Shown here: in pieces, positions 148-20,714 of the stretch
Numbering within the stretch: position 1 is the stretch's first letter
Layout of the letters: each line of letters begins with the position of its first letter
IMG/VR virus record: IMGVR_UViG_3300037153_001095
Location: 1-20,714 of that record
DNA length: 20,714 bases
Direction: 5' to 3' (one strand)
Source of the DNA: a virus
The notes under the pieces: generated by a model
The model's input: only the letters and a program-made list of their open reading frames with translations
What the model was told of the DNA's origin: nothing
The model's database searches: none
Position numbers and translations under genes: made by a program

Positions 148-164
148 TGGTGGGGGAGGTAGGA
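148..164. repeat. Left attachment core (17-bp copy of tRNA-Tyr 3' end)
   Basis: TGGTGGGGGAGGTAGGA is identical to 20403..20419, which is the CCA, discriminator, acceptor strand and start of the T-arm of tRNA-Tyr read from the minus strand. The match ends at both sides (G versus C before, A versus C after). A 17-base match to a tRNA end at the far side of an integrase-bearing segment is the usual mark of tyrosine-recombinase integration. It sets the left boundary of the element. Confidence 0.88.
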
Positions 165-1481: not shown

Positions 1482-1491
1482 CAATGGCAAG

Positions 1492-4820: not shown

Positions 4821-4857
4821 TGGCGAGCCGGCCTAAGCTGGCATCCGCCGCCAGACC

Positions 4858-4904
4858 AAAAAATCGCGCTGCCCTCGTCGTCGTGCGGGGGCGCGCGATT
4901 TTTT
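4858..4904. terminator. Bidirectional intrinsic terminator before the MerR-like gene
   Basis: AAAAAATCGCGC (4858..4869) pairs perfectly with GCGCGATTTTTT (4893..4904), leaving a 23-nt loop. The T-run continues to 4906 on the plus strand, and the A-run supplies a T-run for minus-strand transcripts. It is the second terminator in 120 bp and isolates the 456-aa gene from the next operon. Confidence 0.75.
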
Positions 4905-4946
4905 TTGGCCCGCCGAGTCTGTCTCAAACCAACGGAGAACCTGCCT

Positions 4947-5423: not shown

Positions 5424-5468
5424 TCCCTTCCCAAGGGAAATGCAAACCAAAAACGGAGAACAAACACC

Positions 5469-5837: not shown

Positions 5838-5871
5838 AAAATCCCGACCCAGCAACAAAAGGAACTTGTCT

Positions 5872-6522
5872 ATGCAGCAAGCAACAAAAGCCGTGTCCCC
5901 GCTTCGGCGCGTTGACGAATTGCGCGCCAAGGAGGCCCAAGCGAAAGCCGCCTACGAGAAAAAGGCTGTCCAGGTGGCTGGTCTGCAGGAGCGGAAAGAC
6001 CATCCCTTGGCGGCCGACACCCAAGAATCGCTTAATGCGATTGACCAAGACCTCGGCATCGCCTCGCGCGATCTTGTGCTGCTCAAACGCGACTACGAGA
6101 TCGCGGCATCGGTTCGCGCGCAGGCCGAAGAGAATGAAGCTGCCGAGCAGAACGCACGGCAGCGCCAAGACCTGCAGCGGCGTCTCGATGAGGCCGTAAA
6201 GGTCATGCCGGATGAGTACCGCCGCAATTCGCAGAAACTGGTATCGCTCGTGACCATGGTGCACGAACTCGATCGCGAGATCGATGATTTCAACAAACGG
6301 CAACCGCCCGGCAGTGACCGACTGGCTACGTTTGAGCAGCACGTACGCTGGCCGGATCGGAACGAAAAGGGCGTGGTGCCGTTCATTCCGGTCAAGCTTG
6401 CCGATGAGTTCGAAATCGCGCCGTTGCAGCGGGGCGATAACTTCCGGGTTCCTGGCACCGTTCGGCCTGGGGGTGGGATGCTCTCTATCTGGCACGATGC
6501 CAACGGCGTCCCGCGGCGATAA
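5872..6522 (+). CDS. Coiled-coil protein, 216 aa
   Basis: Residues about 10-150 are strongly predicted coiled coil by eye: DELRAKEAQAKAAYEKKAVQ, then SASRDL-type heptads, then QNARQRQDLQRRLDEAVKV. The last 65 residues are different, with Pro, Gly and beta-type sequence (FIPVKLADEFEIAPLQRGDNF), suggesting a small C-terminal beta domain. I do not recognise the family. The ATG at 5872 has AAAAGGAAC about 8 nt upstream; an earlier in-frame ATG at 5716 would overlap the preceding gene by over 100 bp and is rejected. Its place two genes before the tape-measure-like protein allows an assembly-chaperone or scaffold role, which is only a guess. Confidence 0.6.
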   Translation: MQQATKAVSPLRRVDELRAKEAQAKAAYEKKAVQVAGLQERKDHPLAADTQESLNAIDQDLGIASRDLVLLKRDYEIAASVRAQAEENEAAEQNARQRQDLQRRLDEAVKVMPDEYRRNSQKLVSLVTMVHELDREIDDFNKRQPPGSDRLATFEQHVRWPDRNEKGVVPFIPVKLADEFEIAPLQRGDNFRVPGTVRPGGGMLSIWHDANGVPRR

Positions 6523-6692: not shown

Positions 6693-7019
6693 ATGTCGTC
6701 ATCGCTTGATGATTTTGACGCCGCTTGTGCCGATCGCCTTGCGGCCTGGATCGCCACGGCCGGCGACCGCCTGAACATCACCAAAGAGCAAAAAGATTGG
6801 ATGGCGCGCGTCGCGTGGACCATCGGCCAGGTGCCGGCCATCACAACCGAAGCCGAATGTGAAGGCCAGCAGCTGCAGCTGTGCCGCATTTTGCAAACGA
6901 ACATCGGCCATCGCTTTGAGCCGGACACTGTCGCCGCATTCCTCAAGACCGGCGACGGCGCAGTCGCGCTCGCGCTGTTGTGCCGGATCGACGCCTGGCA
7001 AAAGCGCAGGGCGCACTAA
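6693..7019 (+). CDS. Small helical protein, 108 aa
   Basis: This unrecognised, mostly helical protein (DDFDAACADRLAAWIATAG, then a KEQKDWMARVAWTIGQV helix) has four cysteines spread along it with no zinc spacing. The ATG at 6693 follows TTGAGGA with 6-7 nt spacing. It ends 17 bp before the tape-measure-like gene and is almost surely cotranscribed with it. In tailed phages, the genes just before the tape measure often encode tail-assembly chaperones. Size and position would allow that, but no frameshift site or paired extension is evident. Confidence 0.6.
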   Translation: MSSSLDDFDAACADRLAAWIATAGDRLNITKEQKDWMARVAWTIGQVPAITTEAECEGQQLQLCRILQTNIGHRFEPDTVAAFLKTGDGAVALALLCRIDAWQKRRAH

Positions 7020-7036
7020 AAAACAGAGGAATTCAG

Positions 7037-8917
7037 ATGGCAAAGGTAATTTCCGCCGAGGCGCGGATCACGGCGCTGGACGCGACCGGCGAGACGTTCG
7101 CCAACATCGCCCGCAAAGTCCGCGGCCTGTCGACGGCGTTCAAGTCGCTCGGTAACATCACTTCGCACGGCGTCGGCAACGTCAATCGCACGATCGGCCG
7201 CATGAACCGATCGATGCAGGCGTTCGGTCCGCTGGCGACCGGCACCGCCGGTCTGATGGGTGTGACCGGCCTCGAAAGCCTGGCGCGCGAGACGGTCAAG
7301 GCGACGGCGCAGCAATTCCATGAACGCATCCGCATGGAATTGGCCGGCATGGCGCCCGAGGAACGTGCCGAGGCCGAGCGGCTGTCGCTCGAACTGTCGC
7401 AGCGTTACAAAACCTTTTCGCAGACCGAGGTGTTGCATTCGCTGCGTAACATGCGCGCGATCGTCGGCACCTATGAAGAGGCGGCAAAGCTTTTAGAGCC
7501 GATCATCAAACTGCGCACGGCCGTGCTGGCGCAGCATCCCGAACATGCGGCCGAACTGGATCAGGATTTCGATCAGCTGATGAAATCGCAGGAAATCCTC
7601 GGCATCAACCAGGACCCGGCGCGTTTCGTCAAAGACATGGGTTTGATCGCCAAAGCCATGTCGGTCTTCGGCGACACGTTGAAACCGACCGACTTTTTTA
7701 CCTTTGCGCAGCACGCGCGCCTGGCCGGCCAGGGTTTTAACGATCAATTCCTTTACGGCGTTGGCCCGACCTTGATGCAGCACATGGGCGGGGCGCAGGC
7801 GGGCACGGCGCTGTCGGCGCTGTTCCAAGCGTTTGCCGGCGGTCACATGACCGTGCCGGCACTGCGCGAGTTGATGAAGCTTGGCCTGGTCGATCCTTCG
7901 CATGTCAATTTCAGCAAGGCCGGTCTGCCCACCAAAATGCTGCCGGGCGCGCTCAAAGAAAATGAGTTGTTCAAAAACAATCCCTACCAATGGATTCAGC
8001 AAGTCTTGCTGCCGACGTTGAAGGCGCACGGCATTGCGTCCAAAAACGATTTTGAAAATTTGACCGCGGTCCTAGCGTCGAGCCGCACCGCCGGCCAGGC
8101 GCTGGCGATCCTGTCGACGCAACAGCAAAACATCGAAAAAGACATGGCGCTGATGAAAGGGGCTCCGGGACTGAATAAGCAGGTCGAAATCGCCAGCAAA
8201 GACCCGTTTGTCGCGTTCCGCGGCATGACCGAGCAGCTGGAAAATCTTTTGGCGGTCGTCGGAAGTCCGCTGGCCGAGCCGGCAGCGAAGACGCTCAACG
8301 AAATCGCGGCCGGTATCGTCACCTTGGAAAAGGCCGCTAAGAACGCGCCGCTGAGTTCGCTTGCGATCGGTGTGGGTGGCCTGGGCCTTGGCGGCCTCGG
8401 CGTCTGGAAAGCCGCACGCGCGACCATGCGCGGCCTCGGCTTTGCTAGATCGGCGGCCGCTGCGACCGAGGCGGCGGCGCCCGCCGGCAGCGGTATCATG
8501 GGGCCGCTGCTCGGCACTGGGGCACCGATCCTGTTCGGCGGCCTCGGCGCGCTCGATTATCTGCGCGGCAAAGAAGCGGCCCATCAGACCGGCTTGCCGG
8601 TCGATCGCGACGTGATCACGCAGCTGCCATGGTGGCGGCGCGGTGCCGGCTGGATTCAGGAACACATGTTCGGCGCCGATCCGAATCTGCTTTATCCCGA
8701 ACTGCGCGACAAGCTGGCACCATCCGGCACACATGCCGCCGAGGTCAAGGGCAGCGCCGAGCTGAACGTCAATGTCCAGGTGCAGCCGTCCGACGATTTC
8801 GTTTCGCGGATCGTGACGGCGATCAAAAATGAAATCAACGCGTTCGGCGGCAGCACCAGCGTCGGCAGCGCCGGATCGACCGGAATGTCGATGCCGGAAG
8901 CAACGCCTAATCCATAA
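7037..8917 (+). CDS. Tail tape-measure-like protein, 626 aa
   Basis: The general make-up is that of a phage tail tape-measure protein. The N-terminus starts as such proteins often do (EARITALDATGETFANIARK). A long helical body of about 400 residues follows. Two hydrophobic Gly/Ala/Leu segments lie near residues 438-457 and 487-510. The C-terminus has a beta strand and final helix (ELNVNVQVQPSDDF, then RIVTAIKNEINAF) common at the ends of tape measures. In phages this protein fills the tail tube and sets its length. The family rule of about 1.5 angstrom per residue would give a tail near 90-95 nm. ATG 7037 has AGAGGA 6 nt upstream. No tail tube, sheath or baseplate gene accompanies it. It could instead be another long helical injected protein. 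Confidence 0.65.
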   Translation: MAKVISAEARITALDATGETFANIARKVRGLSTAFKSLGNITSHGVGNVNRTIGRMNRSMQAFGPLATGTAGLMGVTGLESLARETVKATAQQFHERIRMELAGMAPEERAEAERLSLELSQRYKTFSQTEVLHSLRNMRAIVGTYEEAAKLLEPIIKLRTAVLAQHPEHAAELDQDFDQLMKSQEILGINQDPARFVKDMGLIAKAMSVFGDTLKPTDFFTFAQHARLAGQGFNDQFLYGVGPTLMQHMGGAQAGTALSALFQAFAGGHMTVPALRELMKLGLVDPSHVNFSKAGLPTKMLPGALKENELFKNNPYQWIQQVLLPTLKAHGIASKNDFENLTAVLASSRTAGQALAILSTQQQNIEKDMALMKGAPGLNKQVEIASKDPFVAFRGMTEQLENLLAVVGSPLAEPAAKTLNEIAAGIVTLEKAAKNAPLSSLAIGVGGLGLGGLGVWKAARATMRGLGFARSAAAATEAAAPAGSGIMGPLLGTGAPILFGGLGALDYLRGKEAAHQTGLPVDRDVITQLPWWRRGAGWIQEHMFGADPNLLYPELRDKLAPSGTHAAEVKGSAELNVNVQVQPSDDFVSRIVTAIKNEINAFGGSTSVGSAGSTGMSMPEATPNP

Positions 8918-8923
8918 AAGATC

Positions 8924-10126
8924 ATGATTTCCGACTCCGCGATCGCGGACCTGAAAGCGCGCAATCCGTGCGACCAGGTCGCCGCGCAATTTGTCCGCCT
9001 GCGTAAGCAAGGCAAGATGCGGATCGGGCCTTGCCCGCTGCATTCGCCCGACCCGCAAGCGCGCGACTCCACGTCGTTCGAATGCGACGCCGATAAATGG
9101 GTCTGCGCCGTCTGTCATGACGGCGGCGACGTGCTGCGCCTGGTCGCGCTGCGGCACGGCCTCGATCCGCGTGCCAATTTCCGCGCCGTCGTCGATCTGC
9201 TTGGCGGCGTCGTCGAATTGTCGCCCGAACGGCAGGCTGAACAAAAAGCCGAGTTTGCTCGCCGCGAAAAGCAGCGCAAAAAGGAAGCCGACGATTATCG
9301 CGAGCGCGAGCGCCGCGTCGCGTTCGATATCTGGCACGCCGGCGAGGATTTCCGCGGCACGCCGGTCGAACAGTATCTGCGCCAGGCGCGCGGGATCGAG
9401 CAGCTGCCCGATCGGCTGCGGCTGCGCTATGCGCCGACCGTGGCGTTTTTTCATGGCGAGGAAACCAACGAAATCGGCCGCAAGGCTTCGCGCGTGATCT
9501 ACCGCGGGCCGGCGATGCTGGCGCCGATCGTCGACGCCGCCGGTTTTTTCCGCGCCATCCATATAACCTGGATTGACCTGGCGCAGCCGGGCGGCAAGGC
9601 CGCGATCGTGCATCCCGATACCGGCCTGGTGCTGGCATCCAAAAAGGTGCGCGGATCGAAAGGCGGCAACGTGATCCCGCTGGTCGAACCGACCGCCGAT
9701 GCGATCGCCGCTGGCGCCTTGGCCGGCAACCTGGTCGGTTATGCCGGCGAGGGCATCGAAACCGTGCTGTCGGTTTACGCCGCGCTGATGCAAGCCGGCC
9801 GGGATTTGTCGCGCGCCTGGTTTCGGGCAACCGTCGACTTGGGCAATTTGGCCGGCAAGGCGGCCGACAGCGTCCGGCATCCGACGCTGAAAGACAAAGC
9901 CGATCGCGTGCGGCGAGTGCCGGGTCCGCGACCGAACGACGCCGAGGCGTTCGCAATCCCGAAAGGAACGTCGCAGATCGTGCTTTTGGGCGACGGCGAC
10001 AGCGATCCCTTCAGCACGGCCTGCGCGCTTAGGCGGGCATCTGAGAGGCTTGGACGCCAAGGCATTCCGGCGCTGGTCGCGATGGCGCCGGCGGGCATGG
10101 ATTTCAACGATCTCCTGAGAAGCTAA
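8924..10126 (+). CDS. DnaG-like primase with CHC2 zinc finger and TOPRIM domain
   Basis: The N-terminus carries the CHC2 zinc ligand set Cys37-x2-His40 and Cys61-x2-Cys64 (CPLH, CAVC) that reads template DNA in bacterial and phage primases. A charged linker follows at about 100-135. The C-terminal half is a TOPRIM domain: acidic GEGIET (Glu276/Glu279) and GDGDS (Asp357, Asp359) are the metal-binding residues, and the ending PAGMDFNDLL is typical of TOPRIM primases in phages and plasmids. At 400 aa it lacks the helicase, which is supplied by the next gene. The ATG is 6 bp after the tape-measure stop codon with only a weak ribosome site, suggesting translational coupling. It probably synthesises RNA primers at the origin downstream. 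Function is well supported. Confidence 0.85.
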   Translation: MISDSAIADLKARNPCDQVAAQFVRLRKQGKMRIGPCPLHSPDPQARDSTSFECDADKWVCAVCHDGGDVLRLVALRHGLDPRANFRAVVDLLGGVVELSPERQAEQKAEFARREKQRKKEADDYRERERRVAFDIWHAGEDFRGTPVEQYLRQARGIEQLPDRLRLRYAPTVAFFHGEETNEIGRKASRVIYRGPAMLAPIVDAAGFFRAIHITWIDLAQPGGKAAIVHPDTGLVLASKKVRGSKGGNVIPLVEPTADAIAAGALAGNLVGYAGEGIETVLSVYAALMQAGRDLSRAWFRATVDLGNLAGKAADSVRHPTLKDKADRVRRVPGPRPNDAEAFAIPKGTSQIVLLGDGDSDPFSTACALRRASERLGRQGIPALVAMAPAGMDFNDLLRS

Positions 10127-10240
10127 CGGGCATCTGCTCCGACCGCGCCGCGTCCTGCGCAACGGTCGCCATGGGCGGGCGTCCGGTCGCGCCGGCATCG
10201 CATTCCGCAACTTGCGTAAAATCGAAAGGCGTCGGCCATA

Positions 10241-11932
10241 ATGTCCGAGGGCTGGCAAAAAATCGTCGCGGCGATCGATGCCGCGGCGCCGATCGGCGAT
10301 CCGACCGCCGCGCCGACCGAATTGGGCGAGGCGGCGAACGAAAGCGTCCACCCCGCGCCTGTCGCCGTGCCGGCCGTCAAGCAGCTCAGCGACGACGCGC
10401 GGGCCGCTGCAGCCGGCAACGTCGTCGCGTTTCCGAAAAAGGGCAAACGCAAATCCAAAAAGGCTGACAGGGCGGCAGACGCCGGCGGCGACGATGCGCC
10501 GCCGCGCGAGCCGCGCACCCTTGGGTTCTCGATCGAAGACATGAACGAGCGCTTTGCCGTCGTCCTGATGGGAGCGAAGGCGGTCATCTATACCGAACAG
10601 GCGGACGTGCCGATCGAAGATCGCAAGCGCATGCTGTCGCTGGACGCGTTCCAGACCTGGTTTCGCAATCGACGCACGGAATATCGCGCATCGGACGGCG
10701 CGATCCGCACGACAGACTGGGCAAAGGCATGGTTAGACTCGCCGGATCGGCGGCAATATTTCGGCGTCGAGTTTTCGCCGCCCGACAATGACGGCAATGC
10801 TGTCACGACGCCGGGGTATCTCAATCTGTGGTCAGGCTTTGCCGTCACGCCGGCCGAAACGCCAGACGTAAAGCGCTATAAGACGTTCCACGATCATCTG
10901 CTTAACAACGTCGCCGGCGGCGACCAGGCGCTGTTCCGTTGGGTCTTTGGTTTCTTGGCGCATCTGACGCAGCGGCCGCGCGAGCGCATCGGCGTTGCCC
11001 TGGTGCTGCGCGGTGGCATGGGCGTTGGCAAATCGAAGGTCGGCGAGGTCATCGGCCGCCTGTTCCCGGCGCATTGGGCTCTTGTTTCGAGCGCGCGCTA
11101 TGTGACCGGGAATTTCAACGTGCATCAGGCGACGTGCCTTTTGCTGCAGGCCGATGAAGCCGTATGGGCCGGCGACAAGGCGGCCGAAGGGCGCTTAAAA
11201 GACCTGATCACGTCGTCGATCCAGTATGTCGAGGCCAAGGGGATCGATCCGATCCGGGTCGCGAATTTCGTACGCGTGATGATGACAGCGAATGAAAGCT
11301 GGGTTGTGCCTGCCGGCAAAGACGAACGACGCTTTGCGGTTCTGGACGTCGACCCGCGCTGCAAACAGAATTCCGAATACTTCGCGGAAATGGAACGCGA
11401 ATTGGCAGACGGCGGCCTCGAACACTTGCTTGGTGCGTTGCTGAATTTCGACCTTAAAAGCGTCGACCTACGCAAAATCCCAAAGACCGAGGCGCTGCTC
11501 GAACAAAAGGTCCGATCGTTTAACAGCGTCGAAGCGTGGTTGTATGACCGCCTTCAGGCCGGCACGCCGACACGGCATTTGTCGGAATGGAAAACCGAGG
11601 TTCCGGTCGACGATGTGTATGAGGATTATATTTGGTCGTCGGAACGAATAGGCATCAAGCGCAAGCAGGAACGCACGACGTTCGGCACGACACTGAACCG
11701 CCTCCTTGGCAACAGTCTGCGGAAAACCAGGCCCCGCATGCAGGTAGAGGACGCCCGCGGTCACATAAAAATAGATCGCGTCTGGTGCTACGTGCTGCCT
11801 AGCCTGGGCGAGGCGCGCGCCGCGTTCGAGGCCGTGATCGAGCAATCCCCGACATGGGACGTCGTCGCCGACGATGACGACGAAGCGACCGCCGCGCACG
11901 AGCGCGATAAAGATGATCTTCCGCCGCTATAA
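10241..11932 (+). CDS. SF3/D5-like replicative helicase (DUF5906-like)
   Basis: This 563-aa protein has an Ala/Pro/Lys-rich N-terminal 90 residues, then an accessory domain. An ATPase core follows with Walker A GGMGVGKS (Lys264, Ser265), Walker B LLLQADE (Asp305, Glu306), a sensor Asn351 in MMTANES, and DERR (Arg363/364) as likely arginine finger. The core resembles the helicase half of phage and plasmid primase-helicases such as NrS-1-type and virulence-associated E/D5-like proteins. The C-terminal region (about 420-530) looks like a winged-helix domain that could bind DNA. The tail is acidic. The ATG at 10241 has GAAAGG about 11 nt before it. Placed between the primase and the iteron array, it is the likely initiator and unwinding enzyme for the element. 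Confidence 0.85.
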   Translation: MSEGWQKIVAAIDAAAPIGDPTAAPTELGEAANESVHPAPVAVPAVKQLSDDARAAAAGNVVAFPKKGKRKSKKADRAADAGGDDAPPREPRTLGFSIEDMNERFAVVLMGAKAVIYTEQADVPIEDRKRMLSLDAFQTWFRNRRTEYRASDGAIRTTDWAKAWLDSPDRRQYFGVEFSPPDNDGNAVTTPGYLNLWSGFAVTPAETPDVKRYKTFHDHLLNNVAGGDQALFRWVFGFLAHLTQRPRERIGVALVLRGGMGVGKSKVGEVIGRLFPAHWALVSSARYVTGNFNVHQATCLLLQADEAVWAGDKAAEGRLKDLITSSIQYVEAKGIDPIRVANFVRVMMTANESWVVPAGKDERRFAVLDVDPRCKQNSEYFAEMERELADGGLEHLLGALLNFDLKSVDLRKIPKTEALLEQKVRSFNSVEAWLYDRLQAGTPTRHLSEWKTEVPVDDVYEDYIWSSERIGIKRKQERTTFGTTLNRLLGNSLRKTRPRMQVEDARGHIKIDRVWCYVLPSLGEARAAFEAVIEQSPTWDVVADDDDEATAAHERDKDDLPPL

Positions 11933-11941
11933 AGGCTTTGA

Positions 11942-11976
11942 CGGAGAAAAAATCAGGTTTCGCAATTCTTTCTCCG
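11942..11976 (+). terminator. Hairpin after the helicase gene
   Basis: CGGAGAAA (11942..11949) pairs with TTTCTCCG (11969..11976) around a 19-nt loop, starting 9 bases after the helicase stop codon. The stem is only 8 bp and no T-run follows. A weak terminator or origin-edge structure is possible. Confidence 0.3.
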
Positions 11977-11983
11977 GTCCAGC

Positions 11984-12289
11984 GGTCCAAACGGTCCAAA
12001 CGGACCGCTCTGGCGACGGGCGCATTTGGACCGCAGAAGCGCCGATGAAATGGGCGTTGGTCCAAACGGTCCAAACGGTCCAAACGATTTTCCTCACGTG
12101 CGCGCGCGAGAGCGGGCAACCGCGCTGGGGCTGCCCTAGGCGGCGTCGTGAAGTCGCGAACGGACCTTTTGCTATAAGGTCAAAATTGTTTGGACCGTTT
12201 GGACCGTTTGGACCAATGCCCATTTTTTAATGACTTTTTGCGGTCCAAACGATTTTCCTTTTTCAAGGTGTGTTTGGACCGTTTGGACC
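11984..12289. repeat. Iteron array GGTCCAAAC, likely replication origin
   Basis: Eleven perfect copies of the 9-mer GGTCCAAAC are present. Plus orientation: 11984, 11993, 12059, 12068, 12077, 12242. Minus orientation: 12188, 12197, 12206, 12272, 12281. A near copy (one mismatch) on the minus strand is at 12024..12032. Copies abut in tandem blocks of two or three, so binding sites repeat every 9 bp. The triple blocks at 12059..12085 and 12188..12214 are exact inverted repeats of each other. The 18-mer GGTCCAAACGATTTTCCT occurs at 12077 and 12242. An AT-rich stretch (12215..12271) lies inside the array and could be the unwinding site. Iterons next to a primase-helicase gene are the usual form of a plasmid or satellite origin, so an origin is inferred. 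Confidence 0.75.
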
Positions 12290-12312
12290 AAGCCAATAAC
12301 GACGGAGTTTCG

Positions 12313-12385
12313 GCAGCTTTGGGCAGGATTACCCAAAGTTGCTCGCGCTGCGTCGAAGAGCTTTGGGCAATTTGCCCAAAGCTGC
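12313..12385. promoter_or_regulatory. Two TTTGGGC palindromes, operator or origin elements
   Basis: AGCTTTGGGCA (12359..12369), ATT, then TGCCCAAAGCT (12373..12383) is a perfect 11-bp inverted repeat. A related weaker site, CTTTGGG (12317..12323) and CCCAAAG (12332..12338), lies 44 bp upstream. Two dyads about four helical turns apart suggest a dimeric DNA-binding protein acting cooperatively, such as a copy-control or packaging-operon repressor. The dyads are seen; the ligand is unknown. Confidence 0.55.
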
Positions 12386-12389
12386 CGTC

Positions 12390-12816
12390 GACTGCCGGTG
12401 CGGGTCGGATTGCCTTTCCGCCCGGCATTATCACTGCGGCACTCGGGAACGCCTTAGACCGGTCATGTCCTAGTCGGCTTGACGATCGGGCGCATTCGGC
12501 CCGATGCCCATCCGGTAGGCGCATCGCCGGTCCATCCTAACGATGCGTGCTAGTCATTCTCAGTCGCGCGGTGCCGCAATCGTGCTTACCGGCCATGCGT
12601 GCCTAACAAACGAGACCGCGAACAGCGCGCTAATGCCAGCGACGCGCGCCGAATAACGAACGCTCGAGCAACGACCTAGCTCCATTCGAGCACCGGCAGT
12701 GCGGCCGGCAGTGGGTCCTTCCTGGGTAGGGTGCCTTAGCGGCCGTGCCACGGCCCGAAATCGCGCTAGTCGGACCAAATAAACACTGCCTCAACACCAA
12801 CAACATCTGAAACACC
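12390..12816. other. Noncoding stretch before terS, candidate packaging site
   Basis: About 430 bp hold no convincing gene on either strand. An inverted repeat ATCGGGC (12485..12491) with GCCCGAT (12499..12505) is present. A loose recurring motif, G/N-C-C/T-T-A-G/A, appears about ten times: CCTTAG 12452, CCTAG 12469, CCTAA 12536, GCTAG 12549, CTTA 12584, CCTAA 12601, GCTAA 12629, CCTAG 12676, CCTTAG 12734 and GCTAG 12767 (positions approximate). In lambda-like phages the cos site lies beside the gene for the small terminase subunit, so the position would fit a cos or pac region. The motif is degenerate and could be chance. Confidence 0.35.
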
Positions 12817-12829
12817 GAGGGAAGCTGTG

Positions 12830-13411
12830 ATGTCTGCCGAAACAGATAGCGCTGGCGCATCCGACGATGGTCTGTGGCTTTCGATCAGCGACATTGCGCG
12901 GGAAAAGAACGTCGATAAGGCGGCGATTTCCCGCAAGGTCGCCGAACTTGAAAACGCGGGTCGGATCGAGGTTCGCCATGGCCCTAACAGGACCAAGCTG
13001 GTCAACCTGGCGCAATTCGATGCCGAGGTCGGCGAAATAACGGATTTTGTCCGCGAGCAAGCCGCGCGGCTCACTGACGATCTGATCGGCGACTCCCGCT
13101 ACCGCGAGGCGAGGATCAAGAGCTCGCAATACGACGCGCGCCGCAAAGAGATCGAATTGCAGAAGCTAGCCGGCAGCCTGGTCGAAATTGTACGCGTCGA
13201 AGAGGTCATCGCTCAGGTCGGTGAAGAGATCAAGAAGCCGCTCGACCAGGTCCCGCTCCATGCCGAGCAGATTGCCGCTGCAGCTACGGGCGGCGGTACG
13301 CCTGCCGTCCGCAACATGCTTCGCGAGGTCATCTTTAGCGTTCGCACGCAAATCGCCGAGGCGCTTCTTAAACTCGACATCCGAGCAAAAAGCGATGGGG
13401 CTTCTGCATGA
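12830..13411 (+). CDS. Terminase small subunit, Nu1-like
   Basis: This 193-aa protein starts with a winged helix-turn-helix at about residues 15-62 (LSISDIAREKNVDKAAISRK with wing RTKLVNLAQFD). The central helical region YREARIKSSQYDARRKEIELQKLAG, with the VRVEEV segment after it, is the pattern seen in lambda Nu1-like small subunits, where it mediates assembly and contact with the large subunit. The subunit would recognise the packaging site in DNA. ATG 12830 is preferred over GTG 12827 because GAGGGA at 12817..12822 gives 7 nt spacing. The gene overlaps the large-subunit gene by 4 bp (ATGA), so translation is coupled. The neighbour makes the call fairly safe. Confidence 0.8.
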   Translation: MSAETDSAGASDDGLWLSISDIAREKNVDKAAISRKVAELENAGRIEVRHGPNRTKLVNLAQFDAEVGEITDFVREQAARLTDDLIGDSRYREARIKSSQYDARRKEIELQKLAGSLVEIVRVEEVIAQVGEEIKKPLDQVPLHAEQIAAAATGGGTPAVRNMLREVIFSVRTQIAEALLKLDIRAKSDGASA

Positions 13412-15477
13412 CCTTTACGTCCCTGTTGTCGATCGTCGCTGCTGGCCTGGCCAAGATCATCAAGCCGCAGCCGCCGATCGCGCCTTCAAAATGGGCGGCC
13501 GAGCACGTCATTTTGCCGGATGGCGAATATGGTGGGCAAAAGATCGATCTGTCGCGTACGCCACACATCATTGAGCCGCTCGATCTGCTTGGGCCGGAAT
13601 CTGCGGTGAACGAGATTGGCGTGATGAAATGCACGCAATCGGCTTTTACCACGATGCTGCTGTGTGCCATCGCCCATTCCGTCGATCGCGACCCGTGCGA
13701 CATGATGGTAGTGCAGCCGACTGACGGCGCGTTGACCGACTTCAATTCGACCAAGCTTAACCGGCTCATTGAACGCACCGAGATTCTTGGCGGCAAGGGC
13801 GGCAAGATTTTGCCGCAGACCTCGCGGTCCGCTGCGGGCTCGACCACGTTCGAGAAAAAATATCCGGGTGGGGCGCTAAACCTGGCGCTCGCGTCCTCTC
13901 CCGCGCAGCTACGGATGAAAACGATCAAAAAGGCATTTTGCGATGAGGTCGACGAATACGAGGATGACCTTGAAGGCCAGGGCGATCCGCTCAAACTCAT
14001 CGCCGGCCGGCAAATGTCGTTTCTCGCGTCCGGCACCTGGAAGCGAGCTTACGTTTCGACGCCGACCGTAAAGGGTGCCTCGAAAATCGCCGAGATATTC
14101 GAGCGCGGCGATCAGCGGCGCTGGCACGTTCCGTGTCCGCATTGCGGCTCGCGCTTCGCATTCGAATGGCGGGCACCGTACGATCCCTCCGCGCCCGGCC
14201 TGAAATTCGCAAAGACCTATCCGCACCAGGCGCATTACGTCACGCCGTGCTGCGGCTCGATCATCGAGGCTTGGCAAAAGACCGATCTTTATCGCGCCGG
14301 CGAATGGCGGGCGACACAAACCGGACCAGGCCGGTTTCCGACCTATCACTTCGACGCGATCGCTTCGCCATTCGTGCCGTGGGACGAAATCGCAAAGGAA
14401 TTCGTCGGCGCCGGCGATGATCCGACAAAGCTGAAAGCGTTCTGGAATCTCTTTCTCGGGCTGCCGTATGACGTCGCCGGCGATGCGCCCGATCACGAGC
14501 TGCTGATGCAGCGCCGTGAGGATTACGAGGCGGGCTGCATCCCGTCTGGCGCGCTTCTCGTTACCGCGTTTGCCGACGTGCAGATGCGCGGCATCTACGT
14601 CGAGGTCGTGGCCTGGGCGCCCGATCAGCAAAGCTGGACAATCTTTGCCGATTACCTCGACGGTATCACTACAGAGGTCGACGACGGCGCGTTCGCGCGC
14701 CTGACCGAAATCTATCGGCGGCAATGGCCCGACGCCTACGGCAATGCTTGGCAGTTGAACGAAATTGGCGTCGATTCTGGCTATCGCACCGACGTCGTTT
14801 ATGAATGGACCCGGCGCCACCCCGGTGCCAAGGCAACCAAGGGTGTCGACGGCTGGGGCAAGGTGCCGCTTGGGCTCGCGAGCGATCAGGACATCGATTA
14901 TCGCGGACGCAAGATGAAGGGCGGCGCAAAACTTCGCGCCATCGGCACCTGGCCGCTCAAATCGAAATTTTACAGCTATGTCGCGCTGACGCCGGTGGTC
15001 GAAGGGTCGGCCTTGATCTATCCGCCCGGCTATTGCCACTTCGGCCGTTTCCTGGACGATGGCTATTTCAAGCAGCTCACGGCCGAATTTCTGGACGAAG
15101 AGAGTTTCCGCGGGCGTGTGCGGAAGGTTTGGAAAGTCCGCGGTTCGCGCGAGAACCATTTCTTCGACTGCCGTGTCGGTAATCTGGCGCTGGCAAATGC
15201 CTATTTTATCGGACTGACCGCCGACGATTGGGCTCGCATTGCGCAGGAACGTGGCGTGCCCGCCGACTTGAAAGAACCCGACCTGTTCAATCCGCTCGCT
15301 CGTTCGCGGTCGGAAGCGGCGCCGGCTGCATTCGAGGTCTCGCTGGCAAAACTAATCGAAAAGCAAAGTCACGTTGCGCAGCCGGACGCTGCGCCCGCGC
15401 CCCAGGACGAACCATCACCGGATGTGAAATCGCGAAGCCATTTTGATGGACTCGCTGAATTGAACCGAGGTCTATGA
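13408..15477 (+). CDS. Terminase large subunit, GpA type
   Basis: This 689-aa protein has the full length of the lambda GpA family, an ATP-driven packaging motor with a nuclease domain. Visible features are an ATPase N-terminal half with a deviant Walker A region MKCTQSAFTT (residues 73-82), a Walker B CDEVDEYEDD (Asp179, Glu180), STPT at about 217-220, and zinc-type cysteine pairs CPHC (243, 246) and CC near 276. The nuclease half has acidic FADVQ, GVDSGYR and ENHFFDCRVGN segments characteristic of the family. The Walker A region lacks the usual G-K-T/S triplet; the early Lys74 may serve, as the deviant Walker lysine does in lambda. The gene overlaps terS at its start and the deoxyribosyltransferase-like gene at its end. 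The call is strong. Confidence 0.93.
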   Translation: MTFTSLLSIVAAGLAKIIKPQPPIAPSKWAAEHVILPDGEYGGQKIDLSRTPHIIEPLDLLGPESAVNEIGVMKCTQSAFTTMLLCAIAHSVDRDPCDMMVVQPTDGALTDFNSTKLNRLIERTEILGGKGGKILPQTSRSAAGSTTFEKKYPGGALNLALASSPAQLRMKTIKKAFCDEVDEYEDDLEGQGDPLKLIAGRQMSFLASGTWKRAYVSTPTVKGASKIAEIFERGDQRRWHVPCPHCGSRFAFEWRAPYDPSAPGLKFAKTYPHQAHYVTPCCGSIIEAWQKTDLYRAGEWRATQTGPGRFPTYHFDAIASPFVPWDEIAKEFVGAGDDPTKLKAFWNLFLGLPYDVAGDAPDHELLMQRREDYEAGCIPSGALLVTAFADVQMRGIYVEVVAWAPDQQSWTIFADYLDGITTEVDDGAFARLTEIYRRQWPDAYGNAWQLNEIGVDSGYRTDVVYEWTRRHPGAKATKGVDGWGKVPLGLASDQDIDYRGRKMKGGAKLRAIGTWPLKSKFYSYVALTPVVEGSALIYPPGYCHFGRFLDDGYFKQLTAEFLDEESFRGRVRKVWKVRGSRENHFFDCRVGNLALANAYFIGLTADDWARIAQERGVPADLKEPDLFNPLARSRSEAAPAAFEVSLAKLIEKQSHVAQPDAAPAPQDEPSPDVKSRSHFDGLAELNRGL

Positions 15478-16148
15478 TGCACACGAAATCTAATAAGATA
15501 AGTCCCGCTTTAGCTGCCATCGCGCAGGGTCTTGCGGAGGGATTCCGGCCAGGACCGAAACGTCCTGCGGCCGAAACTCCGAAGCGCCCTAAGCTTTATT
15601 TTGCCGATAATTCGCGGCAGCAGCCGAACGCGCATAAGCATCGCGCTTTGATCGAAGCACACTGCACCCACAATGGCGTGGTCGCGGAGTGGCCGGCCGA
15701 GCACGATCTATTTCCGACCAGCCTTACGACCGAACAGCGTAAAAATGGCGGGCCGCCGATCGATGATCCGGCGCCCGGCCGTGTGCTGCACAAGGCCTGG
15801 TACCGCATAGGTCATTGCGACGCGGTCGTGGCCGAGACCACGCCGTTTCGCGGTGTCCATATGAATCCTTTGGTGGCCTTTGAGGTCGGGATCGCTGTCG
15901 TGCACAGCGTTCCAGTTTTTGCTTGGACCAAAGATTTTGATCGGCGAGGCTTAAATTCGATGATGGATCGCCTATGGCCGAGCCGGGCGCCTGATGGGAA
16001 TTGGCGCGACCTGGTCGACGACTGCGGCGACCTGATCGAAAACTTTGGCATGAACCAGTTTGCCCAGATTGCCGGCAATTTCGTTTCGCTGTCTCCGTCC
16101 CTCTACCATGCAATAGCGGAAGCGAAACAGTATTTGGCAACGCGTTAA
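15477..16148 (+). CDS. Nucleoside 2-deoxyribosyltransferase-like protein
   Basis: This 223-aa protein carries the hallmark block of the Nuc_deoxyrib_tr family at about residues 112-140: GHCDAVVAETTPFRGVHMN followed by AFEVG, where Glu136 is the expected nucleophile. The N-terminal LYFADNS strand matches the usual Y-L-A-G/A start. Family enzymes transfer deoxyribose between bases, or hydrolyse nucleotides in related branches. The common DPGTA segment is NPLVA here, so the activity may be altered. An Ala/Pro/Lys-rich 38-residue extension precedes the domain. ATG 15477 is preferred (GAGG 6 nt upstream), though ATG 15474 is also possible; either way it overlaps the terL stop. Its tight coupling to terminase suggests a role in DNA metabolism or host-phage conflict. 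The family is likely; the substrate is unknown. Confidence 0.72.
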   Translation: MHTKSNKISPALAAIAQGLAEGFRPGPKRPAAETPKRPKLYFADNSRQQPNAHKHRALIEAHCTHNGVVAEWPAEHDLFPTSLTTEQRKNGGPPIDDPAPGRVLHKAWYRIGHCDAVVAETTPFRGVHMNPLVAFEVGIAVVHSVPVFAWTKDFDRRGLNSMMDRLWPSRAPDGNWRDLVDDCGDLIENFGMNQFAQIAGNFVSLSPSLYHAIAEAKQYLATR

Positions 16149-16273
16149 GCGCTTCGCCTGACCGACAACTTTCACTTTCAAACCCGGACCGTTTTTGTCC
16201 GCGGCTGTTCGGCCTCAAGAAGCGAGGTCGCGCGGCGCAGGCAAAAGGCGTTTTTGCGTTAGGAGCGCCTGGC

Positions 16274-16465
16274 GTGACTCGACCGCTGCGCATCAACAAA
16301 ACCGAGTTGCGACGCCTCATCGAGGTGGCGCGGGAAACCGGCATGCGCATCGTCATTCGGCCCGATCGGTCGATTGTGTTGGAGGAAAAGCCGGCCGGCG
16401 AGGGCGTGGCCGCCTTGGGACAAGGCTGCGATGGGGGTTCACCTGACCGGGAGATCGTGTTCTAA
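16274..16465 (+). CDS. Small integrase-linked protein, 63 aa
   Basis: The GTG at 16274 has AGGAG 8-9 nt upstream. The protein starts with a basic helix (RINKTELRRLIEVARE) followed by a short beta pair (RIVIRPDRSIVLEE) and a Gly-rich tail. Its stop codon directly abuts the integrase ATG, so the two are coupled. From memory, short proteins of this type, with an IVIRPDGSI-like strand, are common just before integrases in alphaproteobacterial prophages. The position and basic helix would suit a recombination directionality factor or integrase accessory protein, but there is no classical excisionase HTH. An upstream extension of the frame to 16001 overlaps the preceding gene and is rejected. Confidence 0.6.
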   Translation: MTRPLRINKTELRRLIEVARETGMRIVIRPDRSIVLEEKPAGEGVAALGQGCDGGSPDREIVF

Positions 16466-17653
16466 ATGGACCCAAAACCGAGCCGCGATATGCCGCGTCC
16501 CCGCCCGCCATACCTGCAGCGCCATACGACCCGACATGGGAATTGCGTCTGGTATGTCCGCGTTGCCGACGACGCGGGCAGGCGCAAGAATGTTCGGATC
16601 AAAGGCGAGTATGGCACGCCGCAATTCGTCGCCGCGTATGAGGCGGCCTTGGCGGGCAAGCCGGCGCCGCCGCTGCCCTATGACAAAGCGATTGCTGGCA
16701 CGGTGAAGTGGCTGATCGACCGTTACCGCGAAAGCCAGGCGTGGCGAGACTATTCGCCGGCGACGCGCCGGCAACGCGAATTTATTTTCCTGCAGATCAT
16801 CGCCAAGGCGGGCAACGAGCCGCTGCGCAATGTCACGCGCGGCGCAATTGCGAGAGGCCGCGATGAGCGCGCTAAGACGCCGGCTCAGGCGCGGCACTAC
16901 ATGGAAGCGGTGCGCGGCCTGTTTTCCTGGGCGCTCGATGCGCAGCTGGTCGCCTTCGATCCCTCGGCCGGGTTGAAAGACCCGGCGCGCAAGAAGGGTG
17001 GCGGGTTCCGCGTCTGGACCGAGGAAGAGGTGCAACGCTACGAGTCGCGTTGGCCGCTCGGCACGCGCCAGCGCGTCTGGTTGGATGTGCTGCTCTACTC
17101 GGGGCTGCGCCGGAGCGATGCCGTCAAGCTTGGCCGCGGTCATGTGCGTGTCTTCAGTTCGAAGGGCCGCCGCGTGCGCGTACATACGATCGCGACGCAG
17201 AAATCGGGCGAGACGGTTGACGTCACGCTGCCGATTTTGCCGCAGCTGCAGGCGACGCTTGACACCGGGCCGATCGGCGCCGAGACCTACATCGCCGGCA
17301 AGCGCGGCAAGCCATTCACCAGGGAGAGTTTTGGCACTGCGTTCGCCGAGGCATGCAAGCTCGCCGGCGTTCCTGGCAGGGCACACGGCATCCGCAAGCT
17401 TGGCGCCACGCGCGCCGCCAACAATGGCGCCACGATCAATCAGCTGCAGGCGCTGTTCGGTTGGACCGATGTCAAGATGCCGATGCTCTATACCAAGTCG
17501 GCGGATCGCCAGCGCCTTGGCGTCGAAGCGGCATCGCTGCTTGCATTCGACGATGCTGCCGCACGGGCGATGGTTCCTGATACCGCGACCGTGCTGCCGC
17601 TCTACAAGGAAGGTCGTGGTCGGGCCGCAGGCAAAGACCCTGACGGCGCCTGA
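16466..17653 (+). CDS. int: Tyrosine recombinase (phage integrase)
   Basis: This 395-aa protein has a basic N-terminal arm-binding region, a core-binding domain at about residues 75-165 and a C-terminal catalytic domain. Catalytic residues visible in order are Arg215 (GLRRSD), Lys246 (TQKSGE), His307 and Arg310 (HGIRK), Trp333 in place of the second His (FGWTD), and the nucleophile Tyr342 (MLYTKSAD). Trp at the fifth position is an accepted variant. It would cut and join the 17-bp core at the tRNA-Tyr 3' end. The gene starts directly after the 63-aa gene, with only a distant GGGAG, so translation is probably coupled. It ends 12 bp before a convergent cargo gene. Length and motifs indicate an intact enzyme. 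Confidence 0.93.
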   Translation: MDPKPSRDMPRPRPPYLQRHTTRHGNCVWYVRVADDAGRRKNVRIKGEYGTPQFVAAYEAALAGKPAPPLPYDKAIAGTVKWLIDRYRESQAWRDYSPATRRQREFIFLQIIAKAGNEPLRNVTRGAIARGRDERAKTPAQARHYMEAVRGLFSWALDAQLVAFDPSAGLKDPARKKGGGFRVWTEEEVQRYESRWPLGTRQRVWLDVLLYSGLRRSDAVKLGRGHVRVFSSKGRRVRVHTIATQKSGETVDVTLPILPQLQATLDTGPIGAETYIAGKRGKPFTRESFGTAFAEACKLAGVPGRAHGIRKLGATRAANNGATINQLQALFGWTDVKMPMLYTKSADRQRLGVEAASLLAFDDAAARAMVPDTATVLPLYKEGRGRAAGKDPDGA

Positions 17654-17665
17654 ACACGCGAACCG

Positions 17666-18622
17666 TTATGCATCTTTCATTCGGGCTTTCAGCACCCGGA
17701 TGGCCGGTTCGATATCCACAAAGGGCACGCAGAGATTTTCAAAGCGGTCGCCATTGTCTTTCAGAACGATCGCGCTGTCTTCGACAACAAACTGAAACCG
17801 GTTGCGCGACTCCATATAGATTTGTTTGATTTCTCGGCTAGGAGGGTGGTTGCCATATAAGCTAACCAGCGGCTTCTGTCCTTGTGGGCGGGCCAAAATC
17901 TCGCAAACCGCAATCAGCCTTTCGGCCGCAGTATCAGCAAATATTTCGACCATGGCTGAAGCCATGTGATCCTCGATCTGCTCGTAAACTGATGTAGCCG
18001 CACGAAACAATGGGACCATTTCAGGCCATAGCCGATCGATCTGTTGCCGGTTCAAAAACAGGTCATAATAGGTGGATTCATGTCGACCTTTGGTCTTGAG
18101 AAACGTTTGCGCTCGAAACTGACCTTCTCGCGCCGGAAAGTGGTGTAAAGAGTGAGTCCTCCAAGTCTTTCCGGCCACAATGACCGGAGCGGGCTCTTTT
18201 CCGATCTCGCCACCATGCATCGGTCGAGCCCAGCTAAGCAATTTTTCCTGCTCCAACAACGGCAACAGCTTATCGCGCACACTGCCGTCGAAAAGGCAGA
18301 TCGCCCATTCGCTGTCGGCGACGCGAAGGTCGGGGGCATATTGGGCAAGTAGATCGGGGACGGAATCCGGCGTCGCCGTGCTTTCTTTCACGACGTGTGA
18401 AACCGCATCCGCCTGGATCGTCCCCCTGGTCCTCGCTGCAATAAAGATAATGGCACAGCCGGCGCCTACAACGATGCTGCCGACCCAAACCAAACCAGGG
18501 TCCCATCCGCTCAGCGATAGGCCGAAGAAAGTTACGGCCCATCCGGCAAGCGACCACGCCATGGTGCCAACAAAGTGGACGCGCGCCGCCCAATCAATAA
18601 AGTCGATGATGCGGCGAGCCAT
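17666..18622 (-). CDS. Two-TM membrane protein of unknown function, 318 aa
   Basis: Two transmembrane helices lie near the N-terminus (about residues 18-37 and 43-63), followed by a soluble domain of about 250 residues. It contains DSEWAICLFDGSVRDKLLPL, a region with HSLHHFPAREGQF, and a helical middle with EQIEDHMASAMVEIFADTAAERL. I recognise no catalytic motif. With both helices crossing, the soluble part would be cytoplasmic. The gene lies between the integrase and the attachment site, the usual slot for accessory cargo, and looks lower in GC than the core by eye. The start at 18622 lacks a strong ribosome site, so the exact start is less certain. An anti-phage or superinfection role is conceivable from location only. 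Confidence 0.55.
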   Translation of the reverse strand: MARRIIDFIDWAARVHFVGTMAWSLAGWAVTFFGLSLSGWDPGLVWVGSIVVGAGCAIIFIAARTRGTIQADAVSHVVKESTATPDSVPDLLAQYAPDLRVADSEWAICLFDGSVRDKLLPLLEQEKLLSWARPMHGGEIGKEPAPVIVAGKTWRTHSLHHFPAREGQFRAQTFLKTKGRHESTYYDLFLNRQQIDRLWPEMVPLFRAATSVYEQIEDHMASAMVEIFADTAAERLIAVCEILARPQGQKPLVSLYGNHPPSREIKQIYMESRNRFQFVVEDSAIVLKDNGDRFENLCVPFVDIEPAIRVLKARMKDA

Positions 18623-18843
18623 CGTCGAATGTTTTTGGTTGAGGCGAAGGAATAGGAGAGTAGCCGCCTAGATGAGAAGAGAGTCAAGGATTTTTGGGTT
18701 GAGGTTTCCGGTAGGTCGCTTGGACCCCTCTTTCCGGCATTTGGTCGATCAATAAAGCGGCAGTTCGGCGGCGCCTTCCAGCGAAATGGTCCGTTTGATC
18801 ACGTGCTGCCTGCGCGAACCGCTGGTCAAGCTGCTGCCGTCGC
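18623..18843. other. Gap between two minus-strand cargo genes
   Basis: These 221 bp hold no gene I can support, no strong hairpin and no obvious promoter. A minus-strand promoter for the membrane protein gene should lie here but I cannot point to it. Confidence 0.3.
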
Positions 18844-20025
18844 TCAGAGCGTAAGGATGTGCCCTGAAAGTGTCGCGCCGCTCAAGTCCACTGAGCCCGT
18901 GATTGCCACATAGGTGTCGGACGTCGTCAAAGTTGTCTGCGTCTGGGGCGAAGCGGTTGGGTTCGTCGCTTCGACAACATAAGTGCTGCCGCCGTATTCG
19001 AACCAGTCGATCACCCCGGTGTGCGCTGGAATGGCGCCGCCGCTCTGCGATGCCGAAGCACCCGCCACCGCCAAGTCCCAAGCGTATTGGAGCATCGTCG
19101 CAGAAGAGACATCAACTTGATTCGAGGCGCTTGGGTGAGCCAGGATTTCAGTCGGGGCGTTATTGAAAAGGATCGACACGCTGCTGGGCAAAAATGTCCC
19201 AAAGTTTTGCAGTCCGACATGTTGCTCGCCCGTTGCGACGATCTCGACGGGCTGAGTGTTCGGCGGCGGAGTCGTTGCCGCCGTAAATTGATCGCCGAGC
19301 GCAAAGCTTTGGAAGACTTGGCTGACGGTCTGCCCTGAAGCGGTCCAAGCATCGACCTGCGCTGCTGAAGCCGAACCCAATGCATGCGTGATGATGCCTT
19401 GAGCAAGCGCGGCAGTAATCGGAGAATTCGGATCGACTGGATTGCCGTTGTTATAGGCGTCGGCGAAAGCCGTGGAGGCGACGAAGTCGGCGGCGATCGA
19501 CGCGATCGAGCCACCCGAGTCGTGGTAATTTTCCCAGGCCGCCAGTTGCGCTCCGGTCGGGACGGTGCCCGTTGCCAGCTCGATGATCTGGCTGATTTCG
19601 GCGCCGACATTAACGACAGTGGCAACCGGCGGGTGGACTCCAATGAGTGTAAGCGTATCGCCGCCACTGTAATAAGTGGCAGTGTAGGTGGCCCAATTGT
19701 TATTGAGAGCGAACGCCTCAAACACCTGGCCGATTGTTTCGCCCGAGTTGACCCAGTTGCTGACTTGCGCCGCGCTGGACGAAAACAGCGCGTGGTCGAT
19801 GATTTCCTGGGTGAGCGTGACGGTCGGCGCCGAATTGGGATCGACCGCAACGCCACCGTTGTACTGATCGGCGAACGCCGTCGAGGCGACGAAAGCATTC
19901 GCCACATCGGCAATCGAAGCGCCATTATCGACGGCTGTCGTCCAGGCGGCGATCTGATCGTTGGTCGCCTGGAAGCCGGTGGCCAGGAAGATGATCTGAC
20001 TGATTTCGGCGCCGATGTTGGCCAA
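18844..20025 (-). CDS. DUF4214-like exported protein with internal duplication
   Basis: This 393-aa acidic protein has no cysteine and no N-terminal signal peptide. Residues about 3-110 and 139-247 are two copies of one unit: both contain GAEISQII, LATG, then FVASTAFAD, VDPNS and AFAL/SFAL. The pattern (helical pairs ending in AFVxSxxF) resembles DUF4214, common in RTX-like proteins of alphaproteobacteria. The C-terminus is beta-rich with DTYVAITGSVDLSGATLSG and ends in hydrophobic residues, like the uncleaved signal for type I secretion. Likely role: a secreted or surface-attached protein; its target is unknown. TTG at 20025 is chosen because GGAG lies 8 nt upstream and no ATG gives a better site. 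No ABC exporter is in the window, so it would use one from the host. Confidence 0.7.
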   Translation of the reverse strand: MANIGAEISQIIFLATGFQATNDQIAAWTTAVDNGASIADVANAFVASTAFADQYNGGVAVDPNSAPTVTLTQEIIDHALFSSSAAQVSNWVNSGETIGQVFEAFALNNNWATYTATYYSGGDTLTLIGVHPPVATVVNVGAEISQIIELATGTVPTGAQLAAWENYHDSGGSIASIAADFVASTAFADAYNNGNPVDPNSPITAALAQGIITHALGSASAAQVDAWTASGQTVSQVFQSFALGDQFTAATTPPPNTQPVEIVATGEQHVGLQNFGTFLPSSVSILFNNAPTEILAHPSASNQVDVSSATMLQYAWDLAVAGASASQSGGAIPAHTGVIDWFEYGGSTYVVEATNPTASPQTQTTLTTSDTYVAITGSVDLSGATLSGHILTL

Positions 20026-20068
20026 TGCGGACTCCGCTACTCTGCCTCTGCACTGGGGTGCAAAACAT

Positions 20069-20086
20069 GCACCGGGCGCCCGGTGC
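20069..20086. promoter_or_regulatory. 18-bp perfect palindrome upstream of the DUF4214-like gene
   Basis: GCACCGGGCGCCCGGTGC is a perfect palindrome without spacer, 44 bp upstream of the TTG start of the minus-strand gene. It is placed where an operator would act. Nearby GGTGC/GCACC repeats (20057..20061, 20083..20087) surround it. A regulator site or a small hairpin are both possible. Confidence 0.45.
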
Positions 20087-20318
20087 GGTGCTTAAGCGCT
20101 CGCGCGCCGTTCGATACACGGTCAATACCATAAAGGCAAAGGCGGCAACTTGTCCTTGCGAGACATAAAGTTGCTTAACCGCGCCGCGACGCGCACCGCT
20201 CGCGGCCATGTTGGTGCGGTTTTAGTGCCACCACTATTCCGCAGTCAATTCAAACAAGCGTTTGAATGAGTTTCCGCGCGCGCGCCAGAGCTGCGGCGAG
20301 AACGTGCAGCGAACAAAT

Positions 20319-20358
20319 GGTCTTACTTCTATGGTCTTACCTTGCGGGAGGTAAGACC
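20319..20358. promoter_or_regulatory. Right arm-type integrase sites
   Basis: GGTCTTACCT (20333..20342) and its reverse complement AGGTAAGACC (20349..20358) form an inverted pair with 6 bp between. A third, weaker site GGTCTTACT is at 20319..20327. The pair matches the left-end 10-mers exactly and lies 44-70 bp inside the right core repeat. The inverted pair could also form a hairpin. Shared repeats at both ends support arm-type integrase binding. Confidence 0.65.
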
Positions 20359-20402
20359 CGCAGCGCGAATTATTCTTTATTTTCAATTGGTTGATTTTTT
20401 GC

Positions 20403-20419
20403 TGGTGGGGGAGGTAGGA
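20403..20419. repeat. Right attachment core within tRNA-Tyr
   Basis: TGGTGGGGGAGGTAGGA here forms the 3' end of the tRNA gene (CCA, discriminator, acceptor strand, start of the T stem). It is identical to 148..164. The tRNA on this side is intact, so integration did not destroy it. Confidence 0.88.
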
Positions 20420-20488
20420 CTCGAACCTACGAAGGCGTAAGCCAGCGGATTTACAGTCCGCCCCCTTTGCCGCTCGGGACACTCCCCC
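20403..20488 (-). tRNA. tRNA-Tyr (anticodon GTA)
   Basis: Read on the minus strand, the gene is 86 nt with an encoded CCA. The acceptor stem GGGGGAG pairs with CTCCCCC, the anticodon loop is CTGTAAAT with GTA at 20454..20452, the variable arm is long as in bacterial tyrosine tRNAs, and the T loop is GTTCGAGTC. It is the integration target; the element joins at its 3' end. Confidence 0.95.
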
Positions 20489-20555
20489 GTCAGGGCGGGT
20501 AGGTAAGGGGTTCCAAGGGGTTACGCAATAGCGGCGGCATCGTTCCGACTCGCAT

Positions 20556-20714
20556 TCAGGAATCGCGTCCGGAGCCCCAAAAAGCTGCAGGGAAAGCCGC
20601 CATTGCAAGCTTGGACTTGATCTTGCTCCCCAGTCCGGTTTTGCCGCGAACGTGGAGATTTGCTCGCCGCGACATTTTGGAAAGCATTGCCGGAGGCCGC
20701 TGGACTGGAGGCGA
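20556..20714 (-). CDS. Possible host gene end upstream of tRNA-Tyr
   Basis: A minus-strand frame is open from the window edge to a stop at 20558..20556. It contains MSRRANLHVRGKTG and then a Lys/Ala-rich helix ending in FWGSGRDS. I do not recognise it, and 52 codons are too few to judge. It may be the end of the host gene lying before the tRNA, or noncoding. Confidence 0.2.
   Translation of the reverse strand, partial: SPPVQRPPAMLSKMSRRANLHVRGKTGLGSKIKSKLAMAAFPAAFWGSGRDS

Follow-up and report, generated by a model that had tools for sequence, protein, structure and literature searches.

An NDT-fold protein encoded directly behind the large terminase gene of a satellite-like island, with an N-terminus that probably resembles that of TerL

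The window, i.e. the whole stretch of DNA analysed here (an IMG/VR record of 20,714 bases), holds a tRNA-integrated, satellite-like island without lambda-type portal or capsid. In this island, a gene whose product has the fold of nucleoside deoxyribosyltransferases (NDTs) overlaps the end of the large terminase gene, terL. Profile comparisons indicate that the N-terminus of this protein and of its relatives very probably resembles the N-terminus of TerL itself. We read the protein as satellite-borne, packaging-associated and built on a known fold.

The island and its genes

The island spans about 20.3 kb between its att repeats and encodes its own integrase. Its features are as follows.

148..164, no strand: putative attL, a 17-nt direct repeat (TGGTGGGGGAGGTAGGA), identical to the 3' end of tRNA-Tyr
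6980..8917, plus strand: tape-measure-like protein (tblastn), ORF from GTG 6980, likely start ATG 7037
8924..10126, plus strand: primase with CHC2 zinc finger, DUF7146 and Toprim (domain searches)
10241..11932, plus strand: DUF5906 / D5-like replication helicase (domain searches)
11984..12289, no strand: iteron cluster, 11 exact copies of GGTCCAAAC in both orientations, candidate replication origin
12827..13411, plus strand: small terminase TerS (phrog_57, E 9e-17)
13408..15477, plus strand: large terminase TerL, GpA type (PF05876, PF20454; phrog_15, E 2e-186)
15474..16148, plus strand: gene for the NDT-fold protein, TerL-coupled (Pfam, alignment, predicted structure)
16274..16465, plus strand: small ORF of 63 aa with GTG start, between the NDT-like gene and the integrase
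16466..17653, plus strand: tyrosine integrase (PF00589, E 4e-15; phrog_1)
20403..20419, no strand: putative attR, inside the 3' end of tRNA-Tyr (tRNA 20403-20488, minus strand; repeat and tRNA call)

As background for the att assignment, 3 of 2000 random 38-mers from positions 7000-20714 had a match of at least 17 nt in positions 1-6500. Two related elements are likewise bounded by repeats at tRNA genes, the one in G021 at tRNA-Met (15-nt repeat, about 19.6 kb between the copies) and the one on contig C223 of G025 at tRNA-Lys (45-nt repeat, about 18.6 kb), and directly behind the integrase lie a tRNA-Trp in L040 and a tRNA-Tyr in L005. The iteron sequence GGTCCAAAC occurs 17 times in the window when up to one mismatch is allowed, a number reached in 0 of 100 shuffles (mean 3.86), and L007, L001, L003 and G021 have other repeated 9-mers in the corresponding position. 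Three genes inside the att repeats (389-1339, and 17666-18622 and 18844-20025 on the minus strand) gave no Pfam match above cut-off and are likely cargo.

A search of the window for two families, PF05136 portal and PF03864 capsid, found neither, and a tape-measure-like gene is present. The product of the latter had no match in Pfam, and its best alignment by tblastn with annotated tape measure proteins reached E 1e-26 (27.6% over residues 147-462). The same gene lies upstream of terS in L001, L003, L007, L021 and L041. The gene precedes the primase although the island lacks lambda-type portal and capsid genes; its product may set the tail length of helper particles. In the L040 element, a gene resembling minor tail protein Z (PF06763; L130:308-856) is situated just upstream of terS.

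The order tape measure, replication, TerS, TerL, NDT, integrase recurs partly in relatives (L001, L003, L005, L007, L010, L021, L040 and L041), several of which are fragments with genes missing. Where a host is named for the metagenome-assembled genomes of the relatives, it belongs to Hyphomicrobiales. To our knowledge, few satellites have been described in this group.

PICI, cfPICI, P4-like, PLE and PICMI satellites have an integrase, att repeats, their own replication genes, a size of about 18-20 kb and no full structural module (PMC11389934); the island described here shares the first four traits and may likewise lack a full structural module. PICIs are further recognised by phage-dependent induction, PICI-specific genes and the layout of their origin (PMC6092414). 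Compared to the satellites covered in PMC11389934, the island differs in encoding both terminase subunits, TerS and TerL, without a lambda-type capsid, whereas cfPICIs form capsids, and in carrying a tape-measure-like gene and, behind terL, an NDT-fold gene. The gene order of the window was not found described in the satellite literature consulted, including the accessible portions of PMC11389934 and PMC4936722, and searches for NDTs together with terminases and satellites, or with phage satellites, returned no paper from a body of literature that mostly excludes subscription journals.

Association with the large terminase gene

The NDT-like gene is an open frame of 224 aa on the plus strand (15474-16148), counted from the first of two adjacent ATG codons (ATGATG), which runs into the terL stop as ATGA; the second ATG follows in frame at 15477. 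A preliminary description had noted that the start overlaps the terL stop, and this applies to both ATGs, as the stop codon TGA occupies positions 15475-15477. The same description had called the overlap odd for a metabolic enzyme, but it is ordinary for the slot behind terL: in lambda, W (2633) likewise follows A with an overlap of 4 nt across the A stop (2636).

TerL relatives were collected from 42 loci, of which 26 were followed because their TerLs are the closest (L001-L023 and L039-L041; tblastn identity at least 46%; 25 records). With profile A1, an NDT-like gene was found in 10 of 25 records, or in 11 of 26 including the window; the same element seems to be represented twice, as L001 and L002, from two assemblies. 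The distance from the terL stop to the likely NDT start ranges from -4 to +6 nt, with the exception of L001/L002, where an ORF of 123 aa lies between. A PF05136 portal was present in 15 of the 26 records, exactly those without the NDT-like gene, and all 11 NDT records were portal-free; a PF03864 capsid was found in 5 of 5 portal-type records (in G009 below cut-off) and in 0 of the 8 NDT records given to the search. Because several of the NDT records are short fragments, these absences can be relied on chiefly in the window, G021 and G025 C223, which are bracketed by att sites. In the portal-type relatives, TerL is followed by a short ORF and then the portal. Within L041, terL itself (9980-12090) is split over two overlapping frames, reflecting a frameshift or an assembly error.

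A larger TerL scan covering 78 loci yielded 57 with portal, 8 with NDT and 13 with neither, of which 9 have less than 600 nt behind TerL; the 8 NDT loci were on contigs already in the set, and no new NDT-coupled element was found among the 78. At two loci, L166 (6042-6533) and L181 (5985-6641), no portal was detected and TerL is followed by other genes whose products have no TerL-like N-terminus, so that the content of the slot may vary.

Among 397 genomes of the order, the NDT family was found at 74 places (69 genomes) and this TerL family at 41 places (37 genomes). Comparison of the two listings by eye gave an NDT beside a TerL of this family at 2 of the 74 places, both in G025. The family of G025 (341 genomes) contained no further window-type protein by score, and the TerL profile found no such TerL near the NDT genes at 8 other loci on phage contigs. 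A general rule by which NDT homologues follow GpA-type terL is therefore not supported, and 15 of the 26 TerL relatives have a portal instead. Generic NDTs are scattered; the terminase link proposed in the preliminary description is specific to one clade (gene behind TerL in 11 of 26 records), and a TerL-like N-terminal segment also connects the protein with the terminase.

In the NDT tree, a starred clade (100/100) with a stem of 1.22 changes per column unites the 8 proteins of the window type, and the 11 coupled NDTs make up one side of a branch (87/77) that is not starred. The TerLs coupled to an NDT fall into three groups among TerLs of portal-type loci, which shows that the TerL and NDT histories are partly separate; so the terminases moved between satellites and phages, or had several origins, with the NDT gene staying in position.

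The N-terminal segment and a possible part in terminase assembly

The preliminary description had placed a 38-residue basic, Pro-rich extension in front of the domain. Residues 1-39 do precede a strand that begins at residue 40, but the extension also contains a predicted helix (H11-23) within residues 10-28. The two segments compared are:

15501..15557, plus strand: TerL-like N-terminal helix of the NDT-fold protein (residues 10-28, SPALAAIAQGLAEGFRPGP; profile comparisons)
13408..13467, plus strand: N-terminal helix segment of TerL (residues 1-20), which the NDT-like protein resembles (profile comparisons)

TerLs of this family begin with a helix and a Pro-rich stretch, e.g. VKISLPHSLLTIVAGALATMLEP in L021, whose NDT-like protein begins with MKQSSTPSALAIVAGTLARAIDP. 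An HMM of the TerL N-terminus was built from 15 TerLs without an NDT-like gene behind them (10 shown with a portal, the remaining five being L084-L086, L088 and L089) and scanned against 3816 ORFs, each represented by its first 60 residues. The six helix-bearing NDT-like proteins, which are related and therefore count as one origin, ranked 1, 2, 4, 5, 10 and 13 among 3738 non-TerL ORFs; the top two were those of L021 (best E 9e-7) and L007. Conversely, the first 19 matches outside the NDT set to an HMM of these six proteins were all TerLs (3775 ORFs, 78 of them TerL). Alignment of NDT and TerL N-termini by hhalign ran from start to start with a probability of 92.9 and E 3.6e-7, and residue shuffles reached the real score in 0 of 1000 cases for each of the six proteins. 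Based on the two profiles, the ORF background and the shuffles, a chance likeness was ruled out for the group, though not for the window taken alone, whose helix by itself is weak (TerL HMM E 0.34).

Where residues agree, codons often differ (at 58 of 98 positions between NDTs and at 211 of 333 between NDT and TerL), which places the likeness at the level of the protein; a regulatory likeness at the DNA level is not favoured. Five NDT/TerL pairs were tried in codon shuffles, which reached the DNA score in 0, 2 and 3 of 500 cases for L007, L040 and L021, respectively, and in 34 of 500 for L004; for the window, 39 of 500 did so, and the DNA match between its helix and the beginning of its terL falls short of significance. 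The helix is not needed for linkage to terL, since it is absent from the coupled NDT-like proteins of L001, L003 and L005. It is also missing, through an in-frame deletion, from the L039 protein, a close relative of that of L040, and the L041 protein scored 2.9 bits in the TerL N-terminus profile when started at ATG 12096. A second likeness, WPSEH in NDT and WAAEH in TerL (repeat D13), may be coincidental, as WP or FP is already present at this place in generic NDTs. The predicted model of TerL was poor (pLDDT 58) and unusable. In passing, we noted by eye that the TerL of L207 (956-4084; 1042 aa) carries an intein-like insert after its KSAQTGFAL motif.

In P22, TerL attaches to TerS through residues 1-23, and in lambda the C-terminus of TerS binds TerL (PMC9611059, PMC6739421). 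By analogy, the N-terminal segment of TerL may bind TerS in the present TerL family as well; the lambda gpA N-terminus was not recovered by the TerL profile (0.2 bits), so this docking role is carried over by position. Should docking work here as it does in P22, the NDT-like protein would possess the part of TerL that attaches to TerS while lacking the motor and the nuclease. Translationally coupled to TerL, it might then dock through its TerL-like helix onto TerS, be it the satellite's own, that of a putative helper, or both, and intervene when the terminase is assembled: it could be a third component of the satellite terminase or, alternatively, a decoy that keeps the TerL of the putative helper off TerS. 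Binding of TerS by the NDT-like protein is a step that we consider somewhat probable on these grounds, and it would presumably favour the satellite. The whole chain, in which an NDT-fold protein with a TerL-like docking helix joins or competes in terminase assembly, is put forward as plausible but tentative.

A satellite protein that grips the TerS of its helper has been described: according to PMC6739421, Rpp of E. coli PICIs and Ppi of SaPIs bind TerS and redirect or block helper packaging, to which the role proposed here would be alike. For RppC, the TerL-binding residues 100-181 of TerS are dispensable (PMC6739421); a TerL-like helix, by contrast, should occupy that very part.

Fold, active site and competing explanations

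The NDT family signature reported in the preliminary description was borne out by Pfam (PF05014, E 4.1e-9, 37 bits, cut-off 28.8); two members do not reach this cut-off, L021 at 23.3 bits and L041 at 28.2 bits. An AlphaFold2 model of the window protein (mean pLDDT 72.6) gave 15 Foldseek matches at E ≤0.001, all of them NDTs, and VIA aligned it with the NDTs of T. brucei (2a0k; Z 15.0, rmsd 3.5, 150 residues) and Leishmania (6qai; Z 15.0, rmsd 2.6, 143 residues). The product of 15474-16148 has the NDT fold. With the T. brucei and Leishmania enzymes and PF05014 it shares the fold, the PFRG loop, the position of the Glu and the Tyr; unlike these two enzymes, it has NPxxA for DxGTA, a lost NLM motif, ADN for AGP and the additional TerL-like helix. 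None of the 8 NDT-like proteins given to NCBIfam had a match there, and a viral scan with the NDT protein alone as query gave none either. Elsewhere, an NDT-like domain and a DnaB-like helicase were seen by eye in one open frame (L116:5725-8046).

15864..15884, plus strand: altered active-site segment N131-PLVAF-E137 (canonical DxGTAxE; alignment)

The L. helveticus enzyme PDT uses Glu101 as its nucleophile and binds the sugar through Ser14, Tyr17 and Asp95 together with Asn128 from the adjacent subunit (PMC4270796). The sugar-anchoring Asp, located six residues before the Glu, is N131 in the window protein, in agreement with the earlier statement that the DPGTA segment reads NPLVA, and N or S replaces it in 8 of 8 members of the window clade as opposed to D in the other 10 rows of alignment A4. 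The NLM motif, which on the basis of the alignment we take to correspond to Asn128# of that enzyme, reads FAQ in the window protein and is missing in 8 of 8; the AGP loop (LAGP), lost across the clade, has become FADN. The nucleophile position is invariant in 8 of 8; the earlier Glu136 is this same residue, numbered E137 from the first ATG. The conserved Tyr is retained as Y42, and D45, N46, R48, E76 and H77 are new residues invariant in the clade. From this pattern, the site looks re-tooled rather than plainly decayed, and Glu137 may still be doing chemistry.

Such a site would also suit an accessory effector in a cargo slot, i.e. an NDT-fold N-glycosidase that acts on a nucleotide or NAD-like substrate and, without being physically attached to the terminase, damages rival phages or the infected cell. 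Besides the retained Glu137 and Tyr42 and the new clade-invariant polar residues, the other genes behind TerL in L166 and L181, where no portal was detected, speak for this explanation, and NDT-like genes occur in retron operons (PMC12548924), where, as in the window, a domain of this kind is found in the context of mobile elements or defence. PADLOC, however, gave no match for the NDT-like protein at E 1, the L001 and L003 proteins have Gln at the nucleophile position, and the TerL-like N-terminus and the near-constant contact with terL are left unexplained. We consider an effector rather unlikely.

Replacement of the head-tail joining protein gpW by the NDT-like protein, which would then serve as an assembly or DNA-end factor in packaging into helper heads, seems improbable. 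The slot and the 4-nt overlap are as for lambda W, and the portal-type relatives have their short ORF and portal in this slot, but the NDT fold is unlike a small adaptor and the tape-measure-like gene is the only virion-type gene seen in the element of the window. Least probable of all, an ordinary NDT carried as a metabolic gene for nucleotide salvage would account for the PF05014 match and the similarity to 2a0k and 6qai (Z 15.0), but was rejected as the main reading because the substrate-binding residues (the Asp, the Asn of the neighbouring subunit and the AGP loop) are replaced clade-wide and its generic kin are not found beside this terL.

These considerations leave a role in terminase assembly as our preferred reading. 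In its most far-reaching form, which we regard as rather unlikely, the island would represent a satellite family outside the known ones, in which a TerL-like TerS-docking helix and a re-tooled NDT make up a packaging switch or third terminase subunit that mimics TerL to occupy TerS and, during packaging, works at the DNA end by a new activity of a glycosidase-like or nucleotide-sensing kind. If a role in terminase assembly is true, an NDT-type enzyme fold would have been recruited into DNA packaging by carrying the docking end of TerL. This would explain the loss of nucleoside-transfer residues in the TerL-coupled NDTs and would bear on how satellites seize terminases.
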